Below, piece by piece: positions 47,171-50,027 of a stretch of DNA of 64,000 nt. The translations under genes were made by a program, and so were the position numbers. This DNA is from Fibrobacter sp. UWEL. Lineage in GTDB: Bacteria; Fibrobacterota; Fibrobacteria; Fibrobacterales; Fibrobacteraceae. Under the pieces are notes generated by a model. The model saw nothing but the letters and a program-made list of their open reading frames with translations. It did not search any database and had not been told where the DNA came from. The stretch spans positions 1 through 64,000 of the forward strand of contig NZ_FRBE01000015.1 in the NCBI RefSeq assembly GCF_900142535.1. The letters run 5' to 3'. Every line of letters starts with the position of its first letter. Position 1 is the stretch's first letter.

Positions 47171-48958
47171 ATGAAAATTCTCTTTCCCCTGATTCTCGTT
47201 GCCTCCCTGGCAACTTCAATTTTTGCCCAGGACGAAGTATCCAAGGCAAAGGAATTCATCAAGAATGGTGACTGCAGCGAAGCGGTGAACGTCCTGCAGA
47301 AGGTCTACAAGTCCAGCTTCAGCAAGTCCGCTGGCGAAAAGGCCGCCGTGATGCTTACCGAATGCTATCTCCGCGACCACAAGCGCGACGAAGCCAAGCA
47401 GATTACCTCCAAGTTCCTGGAATACTACGTCGCTTCCGACTATCGCGAACGTATGGAACTGGCTAACGCCATCGTTACTGTAGAGCAGGGTGCTCCCTAT
47501 GATGGCGTGGAAGCCATGCTGCGCATCCTGGCTTACTCCAAGAATCCTGCCGCCCGTTCCCGCACCAAGGATGTGGTGATCAAGGTCCTGGCTGCATCTC
47601 TTCTGAATGCAGACCAGCTCCAGTCCCTCATCGAGAAGTATCCGGTGGACAAGGAAGTCATTGGCTGGATTCAGCTGCAGATTGGCCGCGAATGCCAGAA
47701 CGCCAAGCGTTTCCGTGGCGCTCGCTACTGGTACAAGAAGGTGGCTAGCAACGAATCTTCCGAACTGGCAGAAACCGCAAAGCGCGGTCTTGAATCTCTG
47801 GAAGGCATGAGTGCTGGCACTCCTACCATCCTGGTTCTCGCTCCCCTTTCTGGCGACTTCGCCGAATTCGGTGCCGAAGCTATTCAGGGCGTTCTCCTGG
47901 CATACGAACAGTCCGGTCTCAAGGGCAAGGTCAACATCCGTACTGCTGACTCCCGCGCCGACGCTTCCCAGGCACTGCTTCGTACCCAGCAGGCGATCCA
48001 CCAGGATAGCGTGATTGCAATCGTGGGTCCCATCATGAGTGGTCCTGCTGCCGCTGTCGCTGCCTGGCTTGGCACCAACCATCAGTATATCCCCATGCTC
48101 ACTCCCACCGCTACCGATGACGGTATCGCCAAGATGGGTCCCAATATCTTCCAGGTCAACGTGACCATGGACTACCTGGCCCAGAGCATCGCGGACTTTG
48201 CAACCAAGTGCCTGAACATTCGTGAGTTCGGCATCATGAGCCCTTTGGGTGACTACGGTGCTTCCGTGTCCCGCAGCTTTACTCAGGCTGTGAACCGCCG
48301 TGGCGGCGACGTGGTTGCTTTCCGCAACTACGAAGAAGGCCATCCGGATTACAAGACCGAATTTGAAATGCTTCGCGACGTTCGCTTTAAGCAGCTGAAC
48401 CGCCGCCTGAACATGAAGCGTGGCGCTTCCGACTTGAACGCTCCCAACTCCAAGTTCAACAAGAAGGAAAGCGACGTGGAATTCCCGGGCCTCCTGATTG
48501 CCTCCACGAATCCCAGCGAAGCTGGCCTCATGGCTAGCCAGTCCGCATTCTACCAGATCTCCGGTACCCTTCTGGGAACCTCCGGCTGGTACGGTCGCGA
48601 CCTGCTGGTAACTGGTAAGAACCTGGTGGAAGGCGCCTACTTCAGTGTGCCTGCTCTGGACATGGGTGACAAGGATACATTCAAGGCATTCTCCAAGAGC
48701 TTCAAGGAACGCTGGGGCGCAGAACCTGCTGATGACAAGGTTAGCGGCCTGAGCTACGATGCGGCAAACATCATCTTCAAGTCCATGAACTCTGACATGA
48801 GCCTGACCAAGACCTTGAACAACTCCGACCAGTTCAAGGGTGTGTACGGCGACATCAAGTTCAAGCGTGGCGCCAACGTGAACACCAAGATCGTGACTGT
48901 CACCAAGGGCAAGTTCGAAGTTCTGGACGGCTGCCCGGAAAAGACCGACAAGAAGTAA
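47171..48958 (+). CDS. Periplasmic binding protein with N-terminal TPR-like region
   Basis: A 595-residue exported protein. Signal LFPLILVASLATSIFAQ, a helical repeat region (about 20-210), then a type I periplasmic-binding fold (LivJ/LpoA-like): TILVLAPLSGDFAEFGAEAIQGVLLAYEQ, IAIVGPIMSGPAAAVAAWL, FGIMSPLGDYGASVSRSFTQA. The combination recalls LpoA, which activates penicillin-binding proteins, rather than a transport binding protein; no permease genes are adjacent. Terminator follows. Confidence 0.85.
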   Translation: MKILFPLILVASLATSIFAQDEVSKAKEFIKNGDCSEAVNVLQKVYKSSFSKSAGEKAAVMLTECYLRDHKRDEAKQITSKFLEYYVASDYRERMELANAIVTVEQGAPYDGVEAMLRILAYSKNPAARSRTKDVVIKVLAASLLNADQLQSLIEKYPVDKEVIGWIQLQIGRECQNAKRFRGARYWYKKVASNESSELAETAKRGLESLEGMSAGTPTILVLAPLSGDFAEFGAEAIQGVLLAYEQSGLKGKVNIRTADSRADASQALLRTQQAIHQDSVIAIVGPIMSGPAAAVAAWLGTNHQYIPMLTPTATDDGIAKMGPNIFQVNVTMDYLAQSIADFATKCLNIREFGIMSPLGDYGASVSRSFTQAVNRRGGDVVAFRNYEEGHPDYKTEFEMLRDVRFKQLNRRLNMKRGASDLNAPNSKFNKKESDVEFPGLLIASTNPSEAGLMASQSAFYQISGTLLGTSGWYGRDLLVTGKNLVEGAYFSVPALDMGDKDTFKAFSKSFKERWGAEPADDKVSGLSYDAANIIFKSMNSDMSLTKTLNNSDQFKGVYGDIKFKRGANVNTKIVTVTKGKFEVLDGCPEKTDKK

Positions 48959-49254: not shown

Positions 49255-50027
49255 AAGACCTCCGTTTAGAATTCTGTTGCCCGAATGTCAACAAAACTAA
49301 ACACAATGGTGTGTGAATTGTTGATACGTTGTTAAATCCTTGATGATAGTATAGATTTTTTAAGCCTAATTTCCCGAAAATAATGGAAAAGTGATTATTC
49401 CGGAATACTTTGAGCCATCAGTCCGGTGTCAGAGAGCCAGTGTTCCGGAGAAAGAGAGCCATAGCTATTAGCAAGGAAAGCTTATGGCAGGATAAAACTA
49501 GATGTTGGTCATTCAAAGCATTGCGTGTGCCTTTAAACTGATTGTAGGCAGGCGGCTCGCGCGAATAGGCTTATAAAATCCCGCGCGGTCCCAACATACT
49601 GTATTTGACCAAACAAATGAGCTATAAACAGGTGGCTCCACAGGTCCGGAATGATGGCTCCCATTTTTCCGGACTGGCGGCTCCGCCGCTCCGGAATAAT
49701 CAGAAAAGTAAGAAAAGTGTATATGTCCTGCAGATTGAAAAATTTCGTGATTTTTTAGTACAAACGAAATAAAATGTCCTTTTAACCCTTTGAAATACAA
49801 TAAGTTATCCTTTTCGAAAGACTGCGCCCTTCCCTACCGCGCATGTATGCAGGATCTATTCTATTTTGGAATAAAAAACAGGCATTTGGGAGGGTGCTGT
49901 TATTCACTGAAAAAAGCCGTCGTTTGTGAATAAACTGTTTAAAAGTAATTTTAAACACAACTTATCAACAATCGGCCTGGACAATTCACGTCTACTGAAA
50001 GGGTGGAAATTTTCTAAATTGCGTGCC
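49255..50027. other. 773-base gap with a non-autonomous mobile element
   Basis: No convincing gene. It contains an IS21-like element (49392-49702), a TTATTCACT/TTGTGAATAAA pair near 49903-49935, and otherwise AT-rich DNA leading to the TPR gene. Confidence 0.6.
49392..49702. mobile_element. IS21-like non-autonomous element (MITE)
   Basis: 311 bp bounded by perfect 13-bp inverted ends TGATTATTCCGGA (49392-49404) and its complement (49690-49702), starting TG and ending CA. Each end continues with alternating GAGCC and TCCGG motifs at about 20-base spacing, as in IS21-family terminal repeats. A direct duplication GAAAAG flanks it (49386-49391, 49703-49708). The interior codes for nothing recognisable, so it must be moved by a transposase elsewhere. 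Confidence 0.82.

Follow-up and report, generated by a model that had tools for sequence, protein, structure and literature searches.

The 64,000-nucleotide stretch of Fibrobacter sp. UWEL DNA analysed here (the window) carries, at 49392-49702 on the plus strand, a 311-bp element that is very probably a miniature IS21-family transposon without genes, moved in trans by the IstA and IstB proteins of a resident IS21, or by those of a near relative. As expected of a MITE, it lacks a transposase, has inverted ends bordered by target duplications and stands in several copies at unrelated sites; as expected of IS21 ends, its termini are TG...CA and each end holds at least two phased, two-box direct repeats at a spacing of about 23 bp. 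Neither istA nor istB, which an autonomous IS21 would carry, lies within it, and judged by its sequence it is a non-autonomous, MITE-type derivative of IS21 rather than an IS.

Architecture of the element

An earlier note on this DNA had described a 311-bp element with perfect 13-bp TG...CA ends, alternating GAGCC/TCCGG subrepeats, a 6-bp GAAAAG duplication at both edges and no internal transposase, and it was right in each of these respects; the interval that it gave, 49386-49708, takes in both target duplications. The left terminal inverted repeat, TGATTATTCCGGA, occupies 49392-49404 on the plus strand, and the right one, which reads TCCGGAATAATCA as an element end, occupies 49690-49702 on the minus strand; the two are complementary at 13/13 bp. 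Inside them lie the subrepeats, strictly phased, three per end, with a period of about 22-23 bp. At the left end (49399-49460, plus strand), TCCGG begins at 49399, 49422 and 49444 and GAGCC at 49412, 49434 and 49456, or at offsets 8/31/53 and 21/43/65 from the left end. The right end (49634-49695, minus strand) repeats this arrangement in inverted orientation, with GGCTC at 49634, 49656 and 49679 and CCGGA at 49646, 49669 and 49691, which from the right end places TCCGG at offsets 8/30/53 and GAGCC at 20/43/65. We presume the left-end repeats to be IstA binding sites, given that they share the register of the resident IS21 left end and the published geometry (PMC10122671). In that description, IS21 ends hold at least two direct repeats with a 23-bp spacing, each made of two conserved boxes about a helical turn apart, and for IstA to integrate, two of these repeats must be complete at each end (PMC10122671).

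The target duplication GAAAAG abuts the element at 49386-49391 and at 49703-49708; a second GAAAAG occurs in the right flank, at 49712-49717, and the duplication is the only copy that touches the element. The insertion is intergenic: on one side lies a periplasmic-binding-protein-like gene (47171-48958), on the other an unassigned ORF that begins at 49926, both on the plus strand. Among the listed ORFs we found neither a transposase nor any other plausible gene inside the 311 bp: the sole ORF that touches the element (49513-49800, minus strand, TTG start, 95 aa) runs over its boundary. The element thus resembles IS21 and IS5376 in its TG...CA ends, phased two-box repeats, spacing of about 23 bp and short target duplications, and departs from them in lacking istA and istB and in measuring 311 bp rather than 2.5 kb.

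Copies, interrupted genes and empty sites

The earlier note had proposed looking for a full IS21 with the same ends, for further copies and for empty sites in related strains, and each of these was found. The draft genome (3.53 Mb, 62 contigs) holds four more copies, so that five in all, 100% identical over 311 bp, lie at unrelated sites, with duplications of 5-7 bp that read, in element orientation, GAAAAG, GTCATTA, TTTCC, CCTTC and CTATGC; IS5376, in contrast, gave uniform 5 bp duplications in vitro (PMC10122671). A scan for the phased double-repeat pattern matched 12 of the 80 genomes of the genus, while the reversed control pattern had zero matches in all 80. Thirteen matches fall in the element's own genome and all are accounted for, ten by the five elements and three by one IS21, which leaves no unexplained phased ends in this assembly. 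With five identical copies and no control-pattern match, the element pattern is far beyond chance. Short matches to the end sequence on contigs C1, C5 and C7 of the same genome lack phased repeats and were set aside as chance.

In-silico excision restores long open frames at 4/5 sites. Joining the flanks gives a DnaJ-domain gene of 271 codons on contig C41, a frame of 205 codons on C31, a Fib_succ_major-domain gene of 469 codons on C21 and a type III methyltransferase gene of 675 codons on C11. At the last of these (G000:C11:109038-112348, L005), the element, at 1501-1811 of the locus, splits the methyltransferase gene of a type III restriction-modification system, the two halves of which match Pfam N6_N4_Mtase and T3RM_EcoP15I_C. 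These four genic copies look like recent insertions into formerly open genes. All four are in gene orientation, a number too small to mean much. At the C21 and C41 copies the 3' half of the gene is in frame with an ATG that lies in the element's right end (L004 617-1552 and L021 761-1369, minus strand, start MMAPIFPDWRLRRSGII, MMAPIFPDW). Truncated genes could perhaps be re-expressed from this codon; we make no claim for an outward start codon, since 1 in 3 would be in frame by chance.

Sister species retain the corresponding empty sites, one for the window copy and two others for the methyltransferase copy. Once the element is taken out, the flanks of the window copy form one continuous alignment with G065:C18:51622-52319 (78% over the locus), which has a single GGAAAATG where the window has the duplicated site; for the methyltransferase copy, alignments of the joined flanks run through the junction in both G010:C8 and G101:C10. 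Recent movement, which the earlier note had drawn from intact duplications, is better supported by the identity of the copies, their intact duplications and the restored frames together than by the window duplication alone. The element would accordingly count as a recently active mutagen in Fibrobacter, with a type III methyltransferase gene among those interrupted.

Bacterial MITEs are well known. MITEPsy1 and MITEPsy2 of Pseudomonas syringae are likewise short and gene-less, with inverted ends like those of larger transposons, multiple copies and target duplications; their proposed parents, however, are ISPsy2 and the Tn3-family ISPsy30, not IS21 (PMC3189936). A P. syringae MITE has also been located in restriction-modification genes (PMC6053426). 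IS21 goes unmentioned in a 2024 review of prokaryotic MITEs (PMC10969869), and our search, confined to open-access papers, found no IS21-derived MITE. The present element looks like a clear example of one: it has a partner, target duplications, empty sites in sister species and genes that it has disrupted.

The resident IS21 and probable mobilisation in trans

The partner, a complete IS21, spans 2565 bp at C24:613-3177 (L019 613-3177) and has an IstA of 529 aa, an IstB of 258 aa and a 7-bp duplication. Its IstA and IstB exceed the curated NCBIfam IS21 cut-offs (244 bits vs 160, and 201 vs 200), and its IstA matches the IS5376 IstA structures 8q4d/8b4h. It has the same TG...CA ends and TCCGG/GAGCC repeats as the miniature element, which confirms the IS21-type ends that the earlier note had recognised, and its boxes stand in the same register, in four repeats on the left and three on the right against three at each end of the element. 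Over the outer 70 bp the ends of the two are 76% (left) and 84% (right) identical, and every TCCGG/GAGCC box is kept in register. An IstA search of the assembly found none besides this one. The IS21 itself lies at the 3' end of an ORF of 193 aa (L019 34-615). This ORF has an integrase-core (rve) domain and looks like an IS30-type transposase, which would make the locus a mobile element inside a mobile element.

From the matching ends, we infer that the resident IstA and IstB, or those of a near relative, act on the element in trans. The three units of TCCGG plus GAGCC at each end, spaced by 22-23 bp, would serve as sites for IstA binding and synapsis, with IstA supplied by the complete IS21 elsewhere in the genome; IstA and the helper ATPase IstB would then integrate the element into a target cut with a stagger, giving rise to the 5-7 bp duplications. 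We further infer that the ends are sufficient, and that the interior has no role in mobilisation. As a compact natural donor, of 311 bp and with three IstA units per end, the element could serve to study the minimal terminal repeats and the action of IstA/IstB in trans.

Could the mobiliser instead be another member of the IS21 subgroup, now absent or lost in an assembly gap, with the C24 element only its relative? The ends of the miniature element differ from those of C24 by 16-24%, and a slightly better match, of 88%, comes from IS21 right ends in the genomes G030 and G014. Six contigs of G030 (C1, C3, C6, C11, C13 and C18) bear GAGCC-type IS21 ends, several of them at contig edges, and an IstA search of that assembly gave no match; we read this as an assembly broken at copies of an IS21, the interior of which did not assemble. 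IS21 ends lie at contig edges in G020 too, and IS21 copies can therefore be said to break assemblies, of which ours has 62 contigs. Moreover, G009 holds a 99% copy (L026, G009:C40) and no IstA match was found in its genome, but this copy is without a target duplication, which suggests a later rearrangement or a stranded copy. Against all this, the C24 IS21 is intact, with its own duplication and all boxes in register, its IstA is the only one that the search of this assembly found, and the pattern counts leave no ends unaccounted for. We consider such an absent mobiliser unlikely and favour mobilisation by the resident proteins or their near relatives, the actual mobiliser being C24 or, as it may be, a close relative no longer present.

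The interior core

The element is not simply a shortened copy of the resident IS21. Its ends match those of C24 on both sides, as an internal deletion would predict, but the similarity stops at element positions 70 and 235 and the 165-bp interior between them has none to C24; this interior is instead common to other gene-less elements of the genus. As the interior is not a C24 remnant, a simple origin by internal deletion is unsupported and, to our minds, highly improbable. The core, at 49477-49626 on the plus strand, holds no gene and no known RNA family.

Scarcely more credible, and if anything a little less so, is that the interior has a function of its own, as a non-coding RNA or regulatory cassette, with the IS21 ends as no more than its vehicle. 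Across nine diverged elements, an 80-bp stretch of the core does reach 78% in mean column identity, and within it TCGCRCGAA and AATCCCGCRYG are nearly fixed; the whole element also folds as RNA with z = -6.6, though largely through pairing of the terminal inverted repeats. On the other hand, no Rfam family was found in the element (SNORD2, at E 0.11, is a chance match), neither of two candidate helices in the core exceeds shuffles in covariation, RNAalifold gave 0 pairs changed on both sides, and no terminator or promoter rises above shuffled expectation. One relative, at G025:C1, has lost part of the conserved stretch, and the core is not clearly better conserved than the ends (Fisher p 0.02-0.16). 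In view of the missing covariation and Rfam match, we reject a structured RNA core. Lastly, that the copies are an artefact of assembly or repeat collapse in a draft genome of 62 contigs is next to inconceivable, considering that every copy lies within its contig with distinct flanks and its own duplication, and that similar copies occur in independent genomes.

The core seems confined to the genus. In a pattern scan of GTDB contigs it matched Fibrobacter only, plus one Spirosoma match, and the core-bearing matches in a named genome collection are Fibrobacter MAGs. The Spirosoma match lies within unrelated sequence, as does a viral one, and both were discarded.

Two types of end in Fibrobacter

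Elsewhere in the genus, G092 holds a copy that is 84% identical and has a 7-bp duplication, and G025 holds a truncated copy. A second group of sister elements (in G024, G065, G075 and G001) has the same interior, a length of 307-331 bp and the same repeat geometry, with 5-bp duplications in G065 and G001. These differ in their ends: the termini are TGAATAT or TGAGTAT, and the second box is GGAAACC instead of GAGCC, as in another IS21 subfamily. A GGAAACC-type left end is also borne by a degraded IS21, at G063:C12, where it is followed by an IstA that shares 54% identity (85/156 aa) with the C24 IstA; over 70 bp, the left ends of the GGAAACC-group MITEs are 83-89% identical to the left end of this IS21. 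The paired GAGCC and GGAAACC subfamilies thus offer natural substitutions with which to map end recognition by IstA.

Perhaps these elements form a single gene-less lineage across Fibrobacter, with one core whose terminal modules have followed, or been exchanged between, two IS21 subfamilies (GAGCC and GGAAACC) built on the same 22-23 bp scaffold. We regard this reading as possible but less likely than not. Between the groups, the core is 68-74% identical over the conserved 80 bp and the ends 57-59%, against about 48% for shuffled sequences in a fair gapped comparison; at Fisher p 0.02-0.16 the contrast is weak, and we abandoned the idea that the core is much better conserved than the ends. 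For this reason end swapping is retained only as a possibility, and co-divergence under common descent would be enough to explain both core and ends. Were exchange true, the core would have a selected role, for example as a spacer, a bending site or a protein-binding site in the transpososome, and this would be a non-autonomous element that switches transposase host. The element in G078, GGAAACC-like at its left end but of the GAGCC type at its right, may be an intermediate between the two types.

Both types also meet at G065:C19 (L070). Read along the reverse strand, from position 2016 down to 324, this locus has the left end of a GGAAACC-type IS21, a truncated istA, a 305-aa ORF and the right end of a GAGCC-type IS21, with no duplication found around the composite. 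The 305-aa ORF may encode a PD-(D/E)XK-type protein. Two remnants may have fused here, or the ends of two IS21 subfamilies may enclose a cassette.
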